Assembly: GCF_900110025.1 (NCBI RefSeq)
Contig: NZ_FOCE01000002.1
Location: 248,001-312,000, forward strand
From: Gemmobacter aquatilis
Lineage (GTDB): Bacteria > Pseudomonadota > Alphaproteobacteria > Rhodobacterales > Rhodobacteraceae
DNA: 64,000 nucleotides
Direction: 5' to 3'
The notes under the pieces are model-generated. The model was not told the DNA's origin. It ran no database searches and saw nothing but the letters and a program-made list of their open reading frames with translations. Of this stretch, positions 48,408 through 56,758 are shown piece after piece. Positions within the stretch are counted from its first letter, which is position 1. Each line of letters opens with the position of its first letter. The position numbers and the translations under genes were made by a program.

Positions 48408-49706
48408 TTAGCGCGCCAGCACCAGTTCTGCCTTCAGGCCCCCCAGAGTTTCGCTTTCGCCCAGACGCAGCGCGCCCCCATGGCTGCGCGCAATATCGGC
48501 GGCAATCGACAGGCCAAGCCCGACGCCGCCGCCGCGATTGGGATCGCGGGCGCCTTCCAGCCGGGCGAAGGGCAGCACCGCCTCGTCGCGCCGCTCCATC
48601 GGGATGCCTGGCCCGTCATCCTCCACCGCGATCCGCACAGACCGGCCCGAGGCCGTCAAGGTGATCCGCGCCTGCGTGCCATAGCGGCGCGCATTGTTCA
48701 GCAGGTTTTCCAGCGCCCGCGTCACCGCCGCCGGGCGCAACCGCATCACCAGTTGCGTCTCGCCCTGCAGGTCCACCTTCTGGCCCGCCCGTTCGGCATT
48801 TTCCACCACACGGCGCAAAAGGGCAGCCAGGTCGGTTTCCTCGGCATCCTCGGTGGCATCGCCGCGCGCAAAGGCCAGAAACTCGTCCACCAGCCGCTCC
48901 ATATCAGCCACATCACCCAGCAAGGCTTCGGTTTCGTCATCTTCAGGCAGCATCGACAGACCCAGCTTCAGCCGGGTCAACGGTGTGCGCAGATCGTGGC
49001 TGACCCCCGACAGCATCAATGTGCGGCTTTCCATCGCTCGTTCGATCCGCCCGCGCATGTCGAGGAACGCCGCGCCTGCCGCCCGGACCTCAGTTGCGCC
49101 GCGCGGGCGATAAGGGACATGCTGGCCCTTGCCGAACGCCTCGGCCGCCTGTGCCAGCCGCAGGATTGGTGCCATCTGGTTGCGCAGGAACAGATAGGCG
49201 ATCAGCGTCATCAGGATCGAAGTCGCAATCATCAGCACCAGAAGCTGGTGTGGATTGGTGGCCGACATGCGCTTGCGGTCGAAATTGGCGCGGATCACCA
49301 CATCGCCCTGGCGGAAATCGGCCAGCACCCGCCCCTCCTGCGCCAGCAGATCGGCGCCCAGAAAACCCGGCACCTCCTGCGCCAGCGTCTCGGCCACCAC
49401 CCGCCCCGACAGATCCCAGAAGGCGCGGGTGACGCCCGTCAGGGGGGCTGGCCCCTTGGTCACATCGAACCCCAGCCCCCGGGCGATCAGCCGCGCTTCC
49501 TCCGGCTTGCCCGCATCGAGCTCGCTCAGCACCAGCTTCAGCTCCACCGCCACCCCGCCGGTCATCTGCTGCGTCACCCGTTCAAAATGGCGCTGAATGA
49601 AGGCTATGGACACGACAAGCTGGATCGTGACGATGGGCACGACCAGAATGAGCAGAGCCCGGCCATACAGGCCACGCGGCAGCAAAGAGCGCGGGAATAT
49701 CGTCAT
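48408..49706 (-). CDS. EnvZ-like sensor histidine kinase
   Basis: A 432-residue membrane kinase with two membrane helices (about 14-35 and 152-172), a periplasmic sensor part between them, a HAMP-like linker, the H-box VSHDLRTPLTRLKLG (about 238), N-box ENLLNNARRYG, G1 EDDGPGIP and G2 GVGLGLSI. The motif with Asp after the phospho-His and its size match the EnvZ group. No response regulator gene is beside it in the window. Divergent from the MBL hydrolase with 48 bases between starts. Confidence 0.9.
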   Translation of the reverse strand: MTIFPRSLLPRGLYGRALLILVVPIVTIQLVVSIAFIQRHFERVTQQMTGGVAVELKLVLSELDAGKPEEARLIARGLGFDVTKGPAPLTGVTRAFWDLSGRVVAETLAQEVPGFLGADLLAQEGRVLADFRQGDVVIRANFDRKRMSATNPHQLLVLMIATSILMTLIAYLFLRNQMAPILRLAQAAEAFGKGQHVPYRPRGATEVRAAGAAFLDMRGRIERAMESRTLMLSGVSHDLRTPLTRLKLGLSMLPEDDETEALLGDVADMERLVDEFLAFARGDATEDAEETDLAALLRRVVENAERAGQKVDLQGETQLVMRLRPAAVTRALENLLNNARRYGTQARITLTASGRSVRIAVEDDGPGIPMERRDEAVLPFARLEGARDPNRGGGVGLGLSIAADIARSHGGALRLGESETLGGLKAELVLAR

Positions 49707-49754
49707 GGCGCAAGCCTACCCTGCGCCGCAGCCGGACGGAAGAGGAGAGGCAAG

Positions 49755-50642
49755 ATGCACCCATGGACGCCAGGCATTCCCGTGACACTGGAACCCGGCC
49801 TGCGGCTGGTTCTTGCCCCCAACCCTTCGCCCATGACGCATTGGGGAACCAATACCTTCCTCATCGGCACCGGCGATGTGGCGGTCATCGACCCCGGTCC
49901 GGCCCTGCCCGACCATCTGGAGGCGCTTCTGGCAGCCCTCGATCCCGGGGAGCGCATCAGCCATATTCTGGTGACCCATGCGCATCTGGATCACTCCCCC
50001 CTCGCCCGACCTCTGGCCGACCGCTGTGGCGCGACGATTCTCGCCCACGGCGACGCCCGTTCGGGCCGCTCGCCCCGGATGGCGGCACTGGCCGGGTTGG
50101 GCGGCGGCGAGGGCGTCGATCACCGGTTTGCGCCCGATACCTGCCTGCGCGATGGCGACAGCGTCAGTGGCACGGATTGGGCGCTGACAGCGCTGCACAC
50201 ACCGGGGCATATGGGTGGGCATCTGTGCTTTGGCTGGGGGGACCGGCTGTTCAGCGGGGATCATGTGATGGGCTGGGCCCCCTCGCTGGTCTCGCCGCCA
50301 GAAGGCGACATGACTGATTACATGGCCTCGCTCGCCCGGCTCGACCTGCACCGCTGGCGGCGTGCCTTCCCGGCCCACGGTGCCCCGATCGACGCCCCGC
50401 ACGCACGCTTCGCCGATCTGACCCATCACCGCCAGGGGCGAGAGGCGGCAATCCTTGCGGCCCTGCAGGACGTGCCAGCCGATCTCGACACCCTCACCGC
50501 GCGTGTCTACCACGATGTAGCACCAGCCCTGCTGCCTGCCGCGCGCCGCAACCTTCTTGCCCATCTCATTGATCTTACCCACAGAAACAAGATCTCCGCC
50601 CACCCCGCTCCTCTGCCGGATGCACAGTTTTTCCGCCGCTGA
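49755..50642 (+). CDS. MBL-fold metallo-hydrolase (LACTB2-like)
   Basis: A 295-residue metallo-beta-lactamase-fold hydrolase. Metal motif THAHLDHSPLA (about residues 74-84), His in LHTPGHMGGHLCF, Asp in LFSGDHVMGW, and His in FPAHGAPI. A winged-helix-like C-terminal part (DTLTARVYHDVAPALLPAARRNLLAHL) is typical of LACTB2-type members, some of which are RNases. The frame is open upstream but that part is antisense to the kinase; the ATG at 49755 with GAGGAGAGG is clear. Substrate unknown. Confidence 0.88.
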   Translation: MHPWTPGIPVTLEPGLRLVLAPNPSPMTHWGTNTFLIGTGDVAVIDPGPALPDHLEALLAALDPGERISHILVTHAHLDHSPLARPLADRCGATILAHGDARSGRSPRMAALAGLGGGEGVDHRFAPDTCLRDGDSVSGTDWALTALHTPGHMGGHLCFGWGDRLFSGDHVMGWAPSLVSPPEGDMTDYMASLARLDLHRWRRAFPAHGAPIDAPHARFADLTHHRQGREAAILAALQDVPADLDTLTARVYHDVAPALLPAARRNLLAHLIDLTHRNKISAHPAPLPDAQFFRR

Positions 50643-50733
50643 GGCGTGCAGAAAAAACTTCACAGGAAGCACGTTTTTTCCACGTCCCCCCTCTTGCGAC
50701 CCCCGAAACCCGCCGCTATACACCCCCTCGTGT

Positions 50734-50808
50734 TCCGGCGTAGCTCAGCGGTAGAGCAGTTGACTGTTAATCAATTGGTCGTAGGTTCGATCCCTACCGC
50801 CGGAGCCA
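50734..50808 (+). tRNA. tRNA-Asn (anticodon GTT)
   Basis: Acceptor TCCGGCG/CGCCGGA, D-arm TAGCTCAGCGGTAGAGC, anticodon stem GTTGA/TCAAT with loop CTGTTAA (anticodon GTT), T-arm with GGTTCGATCCC, and encoded CCA. It is the left neighbour of the mobile island. Confidence 0.96.
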
Positions 50809-50837
50809 ATAAATCAAAGACTTACGCTACAGCCTCA

Positions 50838-50870
50838 TACGCCAGCCTTACGCGAAGTAAGGCTGGCGTA
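50838..50870. repeat. Perfect 14-bp inverted repeat after tRNA-Asn
   Basis: TACGCCAGCCTTAC, loop GCGAA, GTAAGGCTGGCGTA: all 14 pairs match. It lies 29 bases after the tRNA. It could end the tRNA transcript (though no T-run follows) or be a recombination site at the island border. Confidence 0.8.
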
Positions 50871-50920
50871 AGGCTTTATGGGGGTATGTGACTGCTGCGG
50901 CCTCACTTTTCGGGTCCCCG

Positions 50921-50955
50921 GTGGACATAGTGGACCGTCTCCCCCTAGTGTCCAC
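50921..50955. promoter_or_regulatory. Inverted repeat directly before the endonuclease-like gene
   Basis: GTGGACATAG and CTAGTGTCCAC are near-perfect mirror arms, with GTGGAC repeated at 50931. The right arm ends two bases before the ATG, leaving no ribosome site, so this may be an operator controlling a leaderless transcript. Confidence 0.45.
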
Positions 50956-50957
50956 GC

Positions 50958-51620
50958 ATGGACAACTCACAAGACATTGATTCGCCCGAATACCGCGCCT
51001 GTCACCCGGCTCCGGTTCGCATTGAGAACTTCAACCCGCGCGCGGTCATCCCGCACGGGCTGACCATTGAGCACCTCTGCTCTGCGATGAATGACTTCAT
51101 CGACTTCATTGGCTTCATCAACCAGCAGCTAAACGGGCGCAAGATTGAGCGCCTTGAGACGATGCTGATGCCAGCCAACTTCTCCTCCATCGTCGGGGAG
51201 TTTATGACCTCCACCATCCCCAAGCACTGCCCCACGCTGGCAAAGAACGGATACCACAACGGCCACCCGGACCTCGTGCCCAAGGGGCGGTTTCCGAATG
51301 ACACCGTCCAGCACGCTCAGGACGGGATTGAGGTCAAGGGGTCGCGCTACCTCCGGGGCTGGCAGGGCCACAATGCAGAGGACGCTTGGCTGATGGTGTT
51401 CTGCTTTGAGTCAGGACGCCCCACCGATGGGGCCAAGGCGGTCGCGCCCGCGCCCTTCCGCTACCTCGGAGTGTTCGGGGCGCAGCTTGTGCAGGCTGAC
51501 TGGACCTTCTCCGGGCGGTCTGAAACCAGCCGCCGCACGATCACCGCCGGGGTGAACCGGAGCGGCTATGACAAGATGGTCGGCAACTGGATTTACAAGG
51601 CCCCGGGCCTAAAGCTCTAG
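50958..51620 (+). CDS. Probable type II restriction endonuclease, PD-(D/E)XK fold
   Basis: A 220-residue soluble protein. I do not recognise a named enzyme. The residues GHPDLVPKG (Asp105) and GIEVKGSR (Glu125, Lys127) form a PD-x19-EXK nuclease signature, and an earlier Glu in SSIVGEF (about 81) could complete it. The gene converges with a DNA methyltransferase gene and overlaps its 3' end by 12 bases, the pattern of a restriction-modification pair. No ribosome site precedes the ATG; an inverted repeat ends two bases before it. Codon use is less biased than in the neighbours, as expected for an acquired gene. The cutting site is unknown. Confidence 0.7.
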   Translation: MDNSQDIDSPEYRACHPAPVRIENFNPRAVIPHGLTIEHLCSAMNDFIDFIGFINQQLNGRKIERLETMLMPANFSSIVGEFMTSTIPKHCPTLAKNGYHNGHPDLVPKGRFPNDTVQHAQDGIEVKGSRYLRGWQGHNAEDAWLMVFCFESGRPTDGAKAVAPAPFRYLGVFGAQLVQADWTFSGRSETSRRTITAGVNRSGYDKMVGNWIYKAPGLKL

Positions 51621-52580
51621 CTGGGCCTGATCCTCGCCCAAGGGCAGAGCCCCGGCCTTGAGGCTGGCGCTCAGGGCTGCCAGCTTGGGCACCGCCGCAG
51701 TGGCAAGGTCAAAGTAGGCCCCATGCCGCTCCACGCCAACGGCGCGGTATCCGACAGCCTCTGCCGCCGCGATGGTGGAGCCTGAGCCCATGAACGGGTC
51801 AACCACCACTCCTTCGCCCAAGGGGAGCGCGGCCCAGACAAGCTGGCGCATCAGCGACTGGGGCTTGAGGCTGGGGTGGTCAGCAATGTCCCGCTCCCGG
51901 CGGGGGGTGCGTTCGCTTGGGATCACGTCAAAGAACGGCTTGTCATCGGTGCGGCGGCGCAGCCCACCCGTCCCGAAGTCGCGCAGGCACTCCCTGACCG
52001 TCATGCCCTTGGGCATCGGCTTGCGGAACAGCCCCCAAGGCTCATAGCCGCCCCGGGGCAGCGAACACACGTCTGGAAAGTCCTTCTCCCCCAGCTTGGG
52101 GCGGTCCCCGCCGCGCAGCGTCTGCACCAGCCGGATCACCTCTGTGCGGAACTCAAGGCCCCCGTCGATCAGGCTGGAGAACACCAACTGAGACATGAAG
52201 GAGTTGCAGGCCACGAACACATGCGCGCCCGGCTTGAGCTTGGGCACAAGGTAGCCTGCCCACTCCCGGAAGAAGCGCACCAACGTCTCCCGCTCCTTCG
52301 GGTCCAGTGCCGTGAACCGGGGCAGCGGCGCGCGCACGTTGCCGTCAAAGGCGGGCGGGAGCCGCCAAATCCCGGTGCCGCCCGTGTGCATCCGCTCTAT
52401 CTGCTCAAGCTCATACTCCTTCACGCCATAGGGCGGGTCAGTGACCACGGCATCAATGGAGTTGTCGGGGAGGTGGCGGAGCCAGTCAAAGCAGTCGGCA
52501 TGGACAAGCAGGGACCGCCCCACGCTGTGGTGGGGGTAGTCGAACGCAAGTGGTTGGGGCGCAGGGGTGTGTTTGTTCAT
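51609..52580 (-). CDS. Type II DNA methyltransferase (N6-adenine or N4-cytosine, beta class)
   Basis: A 323-residue methylase. The catalytic motif DPPYG lies near the start (residues 48-52, in DAVVTDPPYGVKEYE) and the SAM motif VVVDPFMGSGSTIAAAEAVG near the end (about 275-295). Motif IV before motif I defines the beta class, with HPSLKPQSLMRQLV between. The target-recognition part is about 80-220. The ATG at 52580 is preferred although the frame runs on to 53735, because that part lacks any methylase similarity and overlaps the glycosyltransferase frame. ATG overlaps the stop of the upstream gene (ATGA). It should protect DNA against the convergent endonuclease-like protein. Confidence 0.88.
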   Translation of the reverse strand: MNKHTPAPQPLAFDYPHHSVGRSLLVHADCFDWLRHLPDNSIDAVVTDPPYGVKEYELEQIERMHTGGTGIWRLPPAFDGNVRAPLPRFTALDPKERETLVRFFREWAGYLVPKLKPGAHVFVACNSFMSQLVFSSLIDGGLEFRTEVIRLVQTLRGGDRPKLGEKDFPDVCSLPRGGYEPWGLFRKPMPKGMTVRECLRDFGTGGLRRRTDDKPFFDVIPSERTPRRERDIADHPSLKPQSLMRQLVWAALPLGEGVVVDPFMGSGSTIAAAEAVGYRAVGVERHGAYFDLATAAVPKLAALSASLKAGALPLGEDQAQLEL

Positions 52581-53356
52581 ATTTGTTGTGTCTCTCTCGC
52601 AGGGGAGGGTATCAAGTCGGCAACGGTCGCGCCAGTGGGAACGCGCACCGCCGCGCCGTGGTTGGTCTTGCGCCAGTGGGAGGGGTCGCGCACGAGGTCG
52701 GAGAGGGCCAGCAGGAGCGCGGCCCAGTGCAGCGCCCAGTAGAACGGCAGCGGGAGTGCAAGCCACACCGGGAGCCTGGCCCGGAGTGCAGCGGCGGCAT
52801 GCAGCGCGACGGCGGTGGCGTAGCCCAGCAGGAGGAGCGCAGCCAAAGGCCCGGACAGGTCCCCGCCCAGCGCCAGCCCAACGCCCACCGGGTGCGCCCC
52901 CGTGCACAGCAGGGAGACGGGAAGCTGCGCCAGTAGGGCGATGCAGCCCGCCGGGCCAAGCTCCCGCATGGTCTGGCGCGGGGTCCTTGCGTGGACGATG
53001 GCAGTGACGGCGAAGCCCTTGAACCAGCGCGCCCGCTGGCGCAGCCAGACGCCCGCCCTGAGCGGAGCCTCCTCCCATGTCGTGCTGTCGATTGTCGATG
53101 ACCGCCACCGAAGCCGGGCCAGCCGGAGCCCAGCGGCAAGCGCAAAGACCGGGGCCAGGATGTAGGACGCCCAAGGGGATGCGAGGGGCAGAAGGGCGAT
53201 GGCCGGGAGGAGGAGCGCGGCCCAGACGGGCACGGCCAGCCCCCGGGCTGACAGGTGGGCGGGGACCGAAACCACGGCCCAGCGGGCGGCGGAGCCGATG
53301 GCAGATGCGATCAGCGAAGTGTTGCAGCGAAGCACCGGTGAGGAAGATGGGCGCAA
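52577..53356 (-). pseudogene. Glycosyltransferase-2-like membrane protein remnant lacking its catalytic domain
   Basis: An open frame of 259 codons with no ATG at its beginning (first codon TTG). Residues about 35-85 are hydrophobic helices; then comes STTWEEAPLRAGVWLRQRARWFKG (about 91-114), with the QxxRW motif that normally follows a GT2 catalytic core; then several helices and HWRKTNHG near the end. The nucleotide-sugar binding part with DxD and ED, some 200 residues in relatives, is missing between residues about 86 and 90. I read this as an internal deletion. Its stop overlaps the methyltransferase start, so it may now serve as leader for that gene. Confidence 0.6.
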
Positions 53357-53453
53357 CGGCCCGTGGACCGCTCCGACCTTCTGGCAGACGAATGCCCATG
53401 AAGCCCACCGCGTTCATGGTGATCTTCACCCGGTGCTGCGCGGTGATCCGGTC

Positions 53454-53834
53454 ATGCGCAGCCGCACCGACCTTGATGGCAAGACGCTGATCGACGCGCG
53501 ACCGCTCTATCTGCTGGTCGGGCCTGCCCTCGAAACCGATGCGGAAAAACTGCTCACCTCGATCAACGCCACCACGGCGGAAGATGTGAACCCCTTCGGT
53601 GGCAAGCTGCGCCTGCTGGTCGAACCGCGTCTGGGTGACTCGGTTGACTGGTATCTGTTTGCCGATCCGGCCCGGCTGCCCTGCATCGCCCACGCCTATC
53701 TTGCCGGGGCGCAGGGGGTGCAGATTCAGCGGCAAGAGGCGTGGAACACGCTTGGCCTTTCGTTCCGCGCCTTCCTCGATTTCGGCGCTGCCTGGACCGA
53801 CTGGCGCGGCGCGCAGAAGATGCTGGGCGCGTGA
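53454..53834 (+). pseudogene. Phage major capsid protein, 3' fragment
   Basis: About 126 residues that match the C-terminal part of Mu-like capsid proteins or prohead protease-capsid fusions: RTDLDGKTLIDARPLYLLVG, TTAEDVNPFGGKLRLLVEPR, WYLFADPARLPCIAHAYL, and LDFGAAWTDWRGAQ. The larger N-terminal part is absent; upstream lies the glycosyltransferase remnant on the other strand. The junction is somewhere between about 53357 and 53450. The stop overlaps the start of the next phage gene (TGATG), so the original phage gene order is kept from here on. Confidence 0.75.
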
Positions 53835-54055
53835 TGCCTGCTGTTTCCCTCGAACAGTTGACGGCCTGGCGTGACGAGCTGGTGGAGCTGCGGGCGTCGG
53901 GTATCCGAACAGTCACGCACCAGAACGGCAGCGCCCTGACCTACAAGAGCGACAACGAGATGGCCGCCGCAATCGCGGCCCTCGACTCCCAGATCGCCGC
54001 CGCCACGCAAGCGCGGGCTGGCCGCTTCACCTTCCAGACCTCGAAAGGTATCTGA
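53834..54055 (+). CDS. Phage gpW-like head-tail joining protein
   Basis: A 73-residue protein starting MPAVSLEQLTAWRDELVELRASGIRTV, with the YKSDNEMAAAIAALDSQIAAA helix and the FTFQTSKGI end that mark gpW-type head-completion proteins. Translationally coupled to the capsid fragment and three bases before the DUF2190 gene, as in lambdoid or Mu-like phage head operons. Confidence 0.8.
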   Translation: MPAVSLEQLTAWRDELVELRASGIRTVTHQNGSALTYKSDNEMAAAIAALDSQIAAATQARAGRFTFQTSKGI

Positions 54056-54057
54056 CC

Positions 54058-54384
54058 ATGAAGAACTTCGTGCAGGCCGGTTCGGCCCTGACCATTCCCG
54101 CCCCCTATGCCGTCGCCTCGGGCGAAGTCGTGCTGGCGGGCAATATCATCGGCATTGCCAACGGCGCTGCCGCCTCGGGTGCCGATGTGGACGTGACCAC
54201 GACTGGCGTCTTCGCGCTGCCCAAGGTCGGCGCCGATGCCTTCACGCTGGGCGCGCCGGTCTATTTCAACACCACGACGAAACTCGCCACCACCACCGCT
54301 TCGGGGAATACCGAAATCGGCACTGCGGTTGCGGCCGCTGTCGCCGGTTCGGCCACGGTGCGGGTGCGCTTGAAGGCGTTCTGA
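54058..54384 (+). CDS. DUF2190-family phage capsid decoration protein
   Basis: A 108-residue protein with the DUF2190 pattern: MKNFVQAGSALTIPAPYAVASGEVVLAGNIIGIA, TTTGVFALPKVGADAFTLGAPVYF, and a C-terminal VAGSATVRVRLKAF. Members are found next to capsid genes and decorate or cement heads. AAAGG lies before the ATG. The gene appears intact although the phage head module is incomplete. Confidence 0.85.
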   Translation: MKNFVQAGSALTIPAPYAVASGEVVLAGNIIGIANGAAASGADVDVTTTGVFALPKVGADAFTLGAPVYFNTTTKLATTTASGNTEIGTAVAAAVAGSATVRVRLKAF

Positions 54385-54483
54385 TCGAACAACCCGCCGG
54401 GGTTCTGAGCGGTTTCACGGCGGGTTCGGGGCGGCAGGCTGATCGGGCATGACCTGCCGCCCCTCTTATGATGGAGTCTAGTG

Positions 54484-54672
54484 ATGAGCGTTTCCCTTGC
54501 CGATCTGCGCGAAGCCCGTGGCATCGTGGCCGAACTGGCCGTGAACAACCCGCTGCTGCAGCCCGTCTTTGATCGGCTGGACCGGGAATATAAGGCCGCC
54601 TTTGCCGCGCCGAAGCTGACCCCGGCGCAGGCCGAAGCCCGCCGCCGCCGCGACATCCGCGCGCTGGCCTAA
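54484..54672 (+). CDS. Small phage-associated protein, unknown
   Basis: A 62-residue, mostly helical protein (SLADLREARGIVAELAVNNP, ending RRRRDIRALA). GGAG lies seven bases before the ATG. It is the last forward gene of the phage remnant and overlaps the integrase 3' end by four bases. No function assigned. Confidence 0.6.
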   Translation: MSVSLADLREARGIVAELAVNNPLLQPVFDRLDREYKAAFAAPKLTPAQAEARRRRDIRALA

Positions 54673-55967
54673 AGCGCGATCTCTGACAGGCGCCGATGGA
54701 TGTGTTCCAGCGTCGCCCCGTCGCCATAGCGCTGCCGACTGATCGCATGGCCGAACACATCACATTTCATCCGTTCAGGCCATGCCGGTTCTGCCGCCGT
54801 CATCCGATCCTCAAACGAATGGCGCAGCCCGTAAAGTGTGTGTTCGGGCGACTCTAACAGCTTGTTTTCGCGCAGGAACTTGTTCGCCGTGGCGCTGATC
54901 TTGTCTTTTCCGAAGTAGGACGGGAACAGCCTGTCGCCCTCGGGCGCCGCCTGCACATAGGCTTTCACCGCGTCCAGCGACACGCCCACAAGCGGGATGC
55001 GCCGCGCCGATGCGCTGTTCTTCAATTCGCGCCCCTCGGGCCTGATCTCGATATGCGGCACCGGCCCGTCAAGGTGCAGGTGGTGCTTCATCAGCCCGGC
55101 AATCTCTGACGGCCGCGCCCCGGTGTTGACGCAGGCCAGAACGATGGTGCGGGCCTGCAGGTTCAGCCCGTCCAGCGCGCCGGCCGCCAAGAGCTTGTCC
55201 CTGAGCCATTTGACGCTGAACGCCTTGCGCTGGCCCTTTTCGGTGGCCTTGATCATCAGCCCTTTCAGCGGCAGCGTCAGGTTCAGGCCAAGCGCATCTT
55301 CGACCGTGTTCAGCGTGTGGGCAACGTGCGTGAAATCCTTGTTCGCGCTGTTCGCGGTCAAACCTTCGGCGTCGATGCGGGCGTTCCACCAGTCGCGGAA
55401 CTTCTTGGCATCTTCGCGCGTGATCTTGCGCAGCTCCTTGTCGCCGACGACCTGAACGAAATTCTCCACCGCCTTGATGCGCGGGTTTTTCCATCGCCTG
55501 ATCTGATCAGCCGTCTTGCCGCGCGTCTGGTCGATACTGATCTTCCAGTATTCCTCCAGCGCTTCCCGAACGGTGATGCCCACTTCCTCGATACCGCCCA
55601 GAAGAGCATCGCCCACGATCTGCACCGGCTGCCCATCGGCGCCGCGTGGAACTGCCTTGGCCCGCGCCACCAGATCGGGCAGCGGCAGATCGGCGACGGC
55701 AGGGGCATGAAGGAAGGGGACGCCATAGCGCGCTGCGATCTTCTCGCCATTCTTCACCAGCGCCCGCCCCGTCAAGGCGTCGCCGTCCAGCATGGCCTGC
55801 CAGCCCGCCTTCATCTTCTGCCATGCCGCATCGGCCTTCCGCCGGGCTTCGCTGAGCGAGTCTGTGTCGAGTGAAATACTGATGATCTTGCGCGGTTCCA
55901 CGGCTGCGAACTGCAACGGAACGCGCTTGCGCAAGTGATAGGTGGTGCCGCGAAGATAGACTGTCAT
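54669..55967 (-). CDS. Tyrosine recombinase / phage integrase
   Basis: A 432-residue integrase. N-terminal part MTVYLRGTTYHLRKRVPLQF (DUF6538-type arm domain), a SAM-like core-binding region (about 120-215), then the catalytic domain with Arg in NTGARPSEIAGL (about 285), HxxR-type YGLRHSFEDR (about 385), and GHAISRQRYG with the nucleophile Tyr (about 418). All key residues seem to be present, so it may still be active. It lies 142 bases from tRNA-Ser, its probable attachment target. Confidence 0.92.
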   Translation of the reverse strand: MTVYLRGTTYHLRKRVPLQFAAVEPRKIISISLDTDSLSEARRKADAAWQKMKAGWQAMLDGDALTGRALVKNGEKIAARYGVPFLHAPAVADLPLPDLVARAKAVPRGADGQPVQIVGDALLGGIEEVGITVREALEEYWKISIDQTRGKTADQIRRWKNPRIKAVENFVQVVGDKELRKITREDAKKFRDWWNARIDAEGLTANSANKDFTHVAHTLNTVEDALGLNLTLPLKGLMIKATEKGQRKAFSVKWLRDKLLAAGALDGLNLQARTIVLACVNTGARPSEIAGLMKHHLHLDGPVPHIEIRPEGRELKNSASARRIPLVGVSLDAVKAYVQAAPEGDRLFPSYFGKDKISATANKFLRENKLLESPEHTLYGLRHSFEDRMTAAEPAWPERMKCDVFGHAISRQRYGDGATLEHIHRRLSEIAL

Positions 55968-56109
55968 GCGTCACAGGATACGGCGCCGGGCTGTCCGGTC
56001 AACTGGCCCATGATTCCAAAATGCTGCCAAAATGTGATGCAAAACGGCGGACAAAAGGGCAGGAAATGCCATTTTTCGCTTTGAAATCAATATGTTAGTG
56101 AAAATGGAA

Positions 56110-56199
56110 TGGCGGACAGAGAGGGATTCGAACCCTCGAGACGGTTCCCCGCCTACACACTTTCCAGGCGTGCGCCTTCGACCACTCGGCCACCTGTCC
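56110..56199 (-). tRNA. tRNA-Ser (anticodon GGA)
   Basis: 90 nt with a long variable arm. Reverse strand: acceptor GGACAGG/TCTGTCC, anticodon stem CACGC/GTGTG with loop CTGGAAA (anticodon GGA), variable-arm stem, T-arm with GGTTCGAATCC, and encoded CCA. Its 3' end faces the integrase gene. Confidence 0.95.
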
Positions 56200-56285
56200 G
56201 TTGCACGCCGTTTAGACCGAAGTCGGGGGGGGATGCAAGGGGCAGTTTCATGCCCTGTGCAGCCCCGGCGTACCCCGGTTTCGGC

Positions 56286-56564
56286 TCAGGCGGCGGCGAT
56301 GGCGATGGCCTGTCGGCGGCTCTGGCATTTCAGCTCTGACGCCACCTCGGGCATGTAGGCCGCCTCGATCAGTTTCATGCTGACACAGCGGCGAACCGAT
56401 TTCTCGGACATCAGCGCCACCTCGACCAGATCGCCAACCTCGATCCGCACGCGCGCGCTTCCCTGTGTCGGGCCGTCATAATGGGCAAGATCCCGGTGGT
56501 CCGAGCACCAGACAATTGCCCGGCCTGTGCGCTGGCAGCTCCAGATCACCACACCCAGCATCAT
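56286..56564 (-). CDS. Hypothetical small cysteine-containing protein
   Basis: A 92-residue protein with Cys in VIWSCQRTGRAIVWCSDHRDLAHYDG, a short beta-rich middle (VRIEVGDLVEVALM) and a basic end. No signal or clear membrane segment. No family recognised. It lies alone between tRNA-Ser and the divergent XRE regulator. The start at 56564 is followed by a second ATG; either may be used. Confidence 0.55.
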   Translation of the reverse strand: MMLGVVIWSCQRTGRAIVWCSDHRDLAHYDGPTQGSARVRIEVGDLVEVALMSEKSVRRCVSMKLIEAAYMPEVASELKCQSRRQAIAIAAA

Positions 56565-56758
56565 TGCGTCTCCGTTCCTAAAGCCGTTGCCTCAACTCGG
56601 GGCCTCATGCCCCGTTAAGGTATTAAGGCACAGCAAGCCTGGTCCTGCATTCGGTTTTCCGCATCAACGGGATGGACAAATCAGGGATTTTGTTACACCC
56701 CTGACGCTAAATCGCGTCAATGAGCAAGAGGCGCCGCGTGCGGCGCGGTGAAGGGCGG

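Follow-up and report, generated by a model that had tools for sequence, protein, structure and literature searches.

A probable type II restriction-modification pair with a widespread, poorly annotated nuclease in a tRNA-bounded region of Gemmobacter aquatilis

Restriction-modification systems are among the commonest bacterial defences and shape gene transfer. Beside a tRNA-Asn gene of Gemmobacter aquatilis, two convergent genes appear to form such a system, one of them encoding a nuclease that at first could be tied to no enzyme family beyond its fold signature. What kind of system is this pair, is its nuclease isolated, and does the pair still work within the phage debris that surrounds it? 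The window analyzed here is the whole stretch of 64,000 nucleotides from contig NZ_FOCE01000002.1 (positions 248,001 to 312,000), and coordinates refer to it unless a locus is named.

The first gene, at 50958-51620 on the forward strand, starts with ATG and encodes a PD-(D/E)XK restriction endonuclease, as predicted, of 220 amino acids, with D105, E125, and K127 as the presumed catalytic residues. The second gene, at 51609-52580 on the reverse strand, starts with ATG at 52580 and encodes a beta-class DNA methyltransferase of 323 amino acids, with DPPY at residues 48-51 and DPFMGSG at residues 261-267. Their 3′ ends overlap tail to tail by 12 bases (51609-51620). The initial annotation had given these reading frames and this overlap, and both frames are found exactly there. 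It had also placed a nuclease signature in GHPDLV (D105) and GIEVKGSR (E125 and K127), which proves to be above chance, and had read the methyltransferase as beta-class and the two genes as a convergent restriction-modification pair. The partner assignment holds on an N6_N4_Mtase match with DPPY ahead of DPFMGSG, and the pair is borne out by a conserved signature, a predicted fold, and adjacency across homologous loci. The genes for the endonuclease and the methyltransferase are thus separate and genetically linked, and the endonuclease carries a nuclease active-site signature, as the definition of a type II system asks.

The nuclease family and its predicted fold

Profile scans of the window nuclease return no match in Pfam, PHROGs, or NCBIfam, and a weak one to the PADLOC type II restriction endonuclease profile REase_II PDLC03564 (2.3e-4, residues 73-110). 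The same profile matches 64 of the 65 family members scanned (best E-value 3.7e-10), and Pfam and NCBIfam scans of these 65 give single-member matches only, all to unrelated families. A scan of one genome per species confirms at least 397 nuclease relatives among 470 pattern matches, a lower bound because the scan was limited by the pattern; the nearest 80 were taken further. The initial annotation had been unable to connect the nuclease to a known enzyme family beyond the fold signature, a view not supported in that form, given the profile match of 64 of 65 members and the hundreds of relatives. The family is widespread and poorly annotated, and it is not isolated.

The titles of the 80 nearest relatives name cyanobacteria, chloroflexi, planctomycetes, acidobacteria, proteobacteria, and others, with the caution that many are metagenome bins and single taxon assignments may err. 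Relatives are also found in 20 plasmid records and at five loci in viral contigs, and none was found in annotated phages. The plasmid annotations call the nuclease hypothetical in 17 of the 20 records and list no gene for it in the other 3. The E. coli collection yields nothing close to the pair on the Citrobacter plasmid, and no account of the family was found in the literature searched, a scope outside which most subscription papers fell. Among the 80 nearest relatives and the plasmid and viral loci, the closest is locus L012, with a nuclease 91% identical to that of the window. Against L012, the nuclease has a dN/dS of 0.105 and the methyltransferase one of 0.15, and both genes are under purifying selection. 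A distant subfamily (L002, L003, and L005) has nucleases 30-32% identical. Its methyltransferases carry an N-terminal extension of ~60 residues that is winged-helix-like by eye, possibly an autoregulator; in L003 and L005 no clear Pfam domain is found in this extension.

An alignment of 85 nucleases, made up of the window nuclease and those of 84 of 90 loci (the other 6 were left out owing to a stop inside the matched stretch), shows no variation at D105, E125, K127, or R130. An AlphaFold2 model built from 61 input sequences reaches a pLDDT of 91.9 and a pTM of 0.89. In the model, E125 and K127 lie within strand 124-129 and D105 sits just ahead of strand 106-108, as expected of the PD-(D/E)XK core fold, with the D...(D/E)xK residues on adjacent strands.

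The comparison of a model with solved structures, suggested in the initial annotation, places the nuclease among restriction enzymes at a distance. Foldseek gives 107 PDB matches at E ≤ 10, and in the best 50 of these, from which the ranks are drawn, the first 13 places go without exception to type II restriction endonucleases (NaeI, EcoRV, SfiI, SwaI, and NlaIV), all of them weak matches, with TM-scores of 0.31-0.42 over the query. NaeI is the top match (E 2.8e-3, TM 0.42), and NlaIV has an E-value of 0.34. Rank 14 and most later ranks of the best 50 are unrelated proteins, with BglI at rank 18 (E 0.85). None of the 107 matches has E ≤ 0.001, which means that kinship to any solved enzyme holds at the level of the fold only. 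The predicted fold supports membership in the restriction enzyme class, with a close solved relative absent. By phmmer, no PDB relative of the window nuclease is found. A PDB profile search with a 10-row alignment yielded matches to the glucocorticoid receptor only (E 0.4-2), which were set aside as chance.

Pairing with the methyltransferase and the search for a site

The initial annotation had allowed for a nuclease gene widespread away from any methyltransferase, which would have refuted the pair; the nuclease is instead nearly always beside the methyltransferase. Ninety loci were examined (80 genome places, 5 viral places, and 5 of the 20 plasmid places), and in 85 of them the methyltransferase lies downstream of the nuclease as its convergent neighbour. 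The stop-to-stop gap in these 85 loci ranges from -123 to +30 bases; the stops overlap in 64 loci, touch exactly in 7, and are separated by 1-30 bases in 14. Among the five loci without this layout, L018, L062, and L073 have just 132, 24, and 328 bases past the nuclease match, respectively, and in L018 the C-terminal end of the methyltransferase is weakly matched (E 0.027). In L080, which has 2690 bases downstream, the C-terminal end of the nuclease frame gives way to other sequence. L072, from a Planctomycetota bin, has an intact nuclease (L072:1444-2070) followed by 4968 bases in which no related methyltransferase is found; it is a true exception, a solitary restriction endonuclease, unless the contig is misassembled.

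Plasmids give a similar picture. At cut-offs of E ≤ 1e-5 for the nuclease and E ≤ 1e-30 for the methyltransferase, all 20 plasmid records with a nuclease are among the 21 with a methyltransferase, and by their coordinates the two genes adjoin convergently in 19 of these 20, in some cases across the record start. The Mycobacterium avium plasmid pP4-4a (L123:1909-3843) has them in tandem on one strand, methyltransferase first, with a longer nuclease gene of 924 bases. This one tandem pair indicates that the convergent layout is strongly preferred and not essential. On the Microvirga plasmid pMVF16-3 (L120:3716-6009), which accounts for the 21st methyltransferase record, the methyltransferase stands in tandem with a different restriction endonuclease, matching PDLC03399 (1.1e-89), for which no similarity to the window nuclease is detectable and no PDB match is found. 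Such a swap of partners may help to find a shared site. The Microvirga pair lies near a Kiwa KwaB-like gene. Among annotated phages, the methyltransferase matches at E ≤ 1e-20 in one record, a haloarchaeal virus of Halorubrum; its convergent neighbour was considered as a nuclease partner and rejected, having neither similarity to the window nuclease nor a PADLOC match.

The two proteins also diverge together. Pairwise distances of nuclease and methyltransferase are correlated at r=0.707 (n=80), a value reached in 0 of 999 permutations by a test that ignores the shared history of linked genes. With the distant group removed, r is 0.56 (n=76), again reached in 0 of 999 permutations.

The methyltransferase matches Pfam N6_N4_Mtase (E=1e-18) and PADLOC MTase_II PDLC03215 (2.8e-96), and its DPPY motif lies upstream of the FxGxG motif, the order of the beta class. 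A DPPY motif points to N6-methyladenine (m6A) rather than m4C, and judged by it the product is probably m6A. A phmmer search of the PDB finds 8urk (1.1e-18), 9c3u (7.8e-18), and CcrM (6pbd, 7.9e-15), with similarity strongest around the catalytic motifs. Entries 8urk and 9c3u are, we assume, M.BceJIV, with the site GTWWAC. An attempt to derive the site of the window methyltransferase from these enzymes was abandoned, as the solved relatives are alike in the catalytic motifs and not convincingly so in the middle region.

Site avoidance was the other approach. Palindromes and gapped palindromes were counted in 86 homologous loci, the window, and 169 kb from relatives. The words that stand out most (GGCC, CTAG, CGCG, GGNCC, GGNNCC, and similar ones) are for the most part common to the control. 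Some 6-base palindromes (CTCGAG, CAGCTG, and GTCGAC) are prominent in the loci and fall outside the top list of the control, in counts that span many unrelated hosts with no matched control. These signals are uninformative, and a site drawn from them was rejected.

The variable region and the start of the nuclease gene

The initial annotation had seen a mobile island beside tRNA-Asn. This is upheld by phage genes, an integrase, and the boundaries of a variable region, the left edge of which is marked by tRNA-Asn (50734-50808, forward strand). A second boundary, absent from that account, is tRNA-Ser (56110-56199, reverse strand), which adjoins the integrase and beyond which sequence shared by the genus resumes. 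Alignment of the left flank, over nine loci from eight same-genus genomes, shows sharing up to 50790-50815, at the end of tRNA-Asn, in six genomes, and up to 50575-50597 in G006 and G008. On the right, 7 of 8 same-genus genomes share sequence again from 56109-56110, where tRNA-Ser has its 3′ end; the eighth locus, from G004, starts farther in. In six stretches of 14.5-15.7 kb past tRNA-Ser in other genomes, none of the window's island sequence is found except for short matches in L104. The region between the flanks, sized in the two genomes with both flanks on one contig, holds other sequence of ~5.2 kb in G007 (L118) and ~19 kb in G003. The interval 50816-56108 looks like a variable integration region, or hotspot. 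A search for attachment repeats found no exact match of at least 11 bases between 50650-55000 and 55950-56750. Three words of 12-16 bases are common to 49000-52000 and 53000-56750.

Beyond the pair lie other genes, some of them remnants. A family 2 glycosyltransferase remnant (52577-53356, reverse strand) lacks ~216 codons from its middle, and its stop overlaps the methyltransferase start as ATGA (52577-52580), an overlap seen both in the window and in L012 (L012:6620-8029). Because the deletion is in frame, this junction survives. The glycosyltransferase was considered as a part of the system and rejected as incidental, being present in L012 only of the 90 loci. A phage remnant reading frame follows on the forward strand (53199-53834), in which residues 85-210 match the C-terminal end of head maturation protease and head protein profiles (phrog_4523, 2.2e-35; phrog_133, 3.2e-19). 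Next are a match to the head-tail adaptor Ad1 (53741-54055, forward strand; residues 38-104, phrog_2545, 9.9e-13) and a phage cement or head decoration protein (54058-54384, forward strand; PF09956, 4.8e-26; phrog_122, 1.4e-29). A tyrosine integrase with DUF6538 and Phage_integrase domains completes the region (54669-55967, reverse strand). Bounded by the two tRNA genes, this degraded prophage or island carries the restriction-modification pair as cargo. In viral contig L008, a pair of the family has clear head and connector genes beside it. On the Acidiphilium plasmid pACMV5, a multiubiquitin/E2/ThiF gene set is found near the pair (L001:5557-6622), and the two small proteins of this set have no PADLOC match.

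The nuclease occurs patchily among relatives of the host. It has one copy in the host genome, and across the host and 30 relatives it is matched in 2 of 31 genomes, the host and the same-genus G004. The G004 copy (L092:1465-1788) covers residues 1-104 only, ending before the signature aspartate, and is followed by at least 850 bases of other sequence. Going by this truncation, the copy is decayed, and the system does decay within the genus.

A promoter-like block upstream of the nuclease (50922-50957, forward strand) consists of TGGACA (50922-50927), an 18-base spacer, and TAGTGT (50946-50951), with six bases to the ATG. It matches the consensus at 8 of 12 positions, below the scan threshold, and L012 and L092, the two closest relatives, conserve these 36 bases ahead of the nuclease. 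When 13 upstream stretches were compared by eye, the block was visible in L012 only. With TAGTGT six bases before the ATG, the nuclease transcript is possibly leaderless. A consensus sigma-70 promoter is absent from 50640-53900, where 0.3 would be expected by chance; promoters of another kind may serve in this host group. The stretch of 149 bases that separates the nuclease from tRNA-Asn has a folding z of -3.76. Just 3′ of tRNA-Asn and ahead of the block is a long, strong hairpin (50838-50870) with arms GCCAGCCTTAC / GTAAGGCTGGC, a candidate terminator or mobile-element end. Five open reading frames of at least 20 amino acids overlap 50790-50957 (81, 23, 40, 61, and 30 amino acids), and none resembles by eye the helix-turn-helix (HTH) of a C protein. 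In Acidiphilium pACMV5, a small HTH gene resembling a control protein overlaps the nuclease start (L001, 742-963).

Mechanism, alternatives, and known systems

We are highly confident that the window pair forms a type II restriction-modification system of two genes. This reading is supported by what the genes encode, by the invariant signature and the predicted fold of the nuclease, by the close pairing of the genes and the correlated divergence of their products, by purifying selection, and by the boundaries of the region. Counted against it are solitary L072, the tandem pair of pP4-4a, the Microvirga swap, the stops in 6 of 90 loci, and the truncated G004 copy, together with the lack of informative site avoidance, the weak PADLOC score of the window nuclease itself, and the lack of a Foldseek match at E ≤ 0.001. 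The system in the window is real and probably functional. Its genes almost certainly encode a DNA-cutting enzyme and the methylating enzyme that shields the cell's own DNA from it, an ordinary kind of anti-virus defence carried on mobile DNA in many bacterial groups.

By its best fold matches, all of them weak, the nuclease is nearest the EcoRV/NaeI branch and would most likely act as a Mg2+-dependent dimer that cuts a short palindromic site. D105, E125, and K127 would hold the metal and activate water, as in the superfamily at large. Methylation of the same site by the 323-residue methyltransferase would protect the host, and unmodified incoming phage or plasmid DNA would be cut. The cell may also become addicted to the pair, an effect that would favour persistence of the genes on phages, plasmids, and islands. 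At the overlapping tails, the two transcripts would collide and base-pair through their 3′ ends, which could plausibly restrain the nuclease until methylation is established. A wider proposal is that these enzymes form an uncharacterised EcoRV-like branch with its own site, which plasmids and prophages have carried into many bacterial phyla and in which the 3′ overlap is a timing device that needs no regulator and is kept since collision or antisense pairing delays the nuclease until methylation is complete. Taken as a whole, this proposal is speculative, and we give it limited credence, somewhat lowered by the finding that not every pair is convergent.

Other readings accept the genes and dispute their function. 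The intact pair could be inactive cargo of a decaying prophage, the nuclease being unexpressed or the methyltransferase having lost its promoter with the gutted glycosyltransferase. The remnants among the surrounding phage genes, the glycosyltransferase that overlaps the methyltransferase start and lacks its middle, and the truncated nuclease of G004 all fit such decay, as does the missing sigma-70 consensus, though with 0.3 expected by chance this says little. However, both reading frames are complete and under purifying selection against L012, the promoter-like block is conserved in three copies, and the in-frame deletion has kept the ATGA junction; we judge inactivity unlikely. PD-(D/E)XK folds are also found in modification-dependent and homing-type nucleases, so the nuclease might be of a type IV-like or homing kind that lies beside a methyltransferase by chance. 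Chance would not readily place it with members of a single methyltransferase subfamily in 85 of 90 loci and in every one of the 20 plasmid records, and this pairing and the correlated divergence point to protection from the enzyme's own cutting; the best fold matches are, moreover, type II enzymes. Such a coincidence is very improbable. CcrM, an orphan beta-class methyltransferase, serves in epigenetic control, and the pair might likewise have been domesticated, with methylation as a regulatory mark and an inactive nuclease. An inactive nuclease is hard to reconcile with a signature triad invariant in 85 of 85 sequences, and a regulatory role with a gene so patchy that it occurs in 2 of 31 genomes, one copy truncated; domestication is accordingly given scarcely any weight.

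On the type II reading, finding the site of the nuclease would aid the annotation of hundreds of genomes and might reveal a cutting specificity that is new. With a tail-to-tail layout in 85 of 90 loci, regulation by convergent transcription becomes testable over many natural variants.

How does the pair compare with known systems? The nearest described families reached are the PADLOC profiles PDLC03564 and PDLC03215, which match 64 of 65 nuclease relatives and the window methyltransferase, respectively, although PDLC03564 is a profile of 267 positions and the shorter window nuclease of 220 residues matches it weakly. The methyltransferase belongs to the same domain family as 8urk, 9c3u, and CcrM but differs too much in its middle region for specificity to be transferred, and these enzymes (M.BceJIV, as we take it, and CcrM) are presumably orphans without a nuclease partner. 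The EcoRV/NaeI branch supplies the best PDB fold matches of the nuclease and has the D...(D/E)xK pattern in common with it, whereas identity in the alignments is 12% for NaeI and 14-16% for the EcoRV entries. In PMC4081073, EcoRV, NaeI, and BglI are placed in the beta branch of PD-(D/E)XK enzymes, and the active site of EcoRV is given as D74, D90, and K92. EcoRV thus has an aspartate in the second position, where the window nuclease has a glutamate.

The layout has precedents. In PMC10779009, the CCNGG restriction-modification systems of the Psychrobacter plasmid pP62BP1 likewise have endonuclease and methyltransferase genes tail to tail, with overlapping stops, on a mobile element; they recognise CCNGG, and the likeness to the window pair is one of layout. 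Antisense or collision control is described for EcoRI and Eco29kI in PMC12707154. With convergent CCNGG pairs and EcoRI and Eco29kI control already described in these sources, the layout of the window pair is not new in kind.
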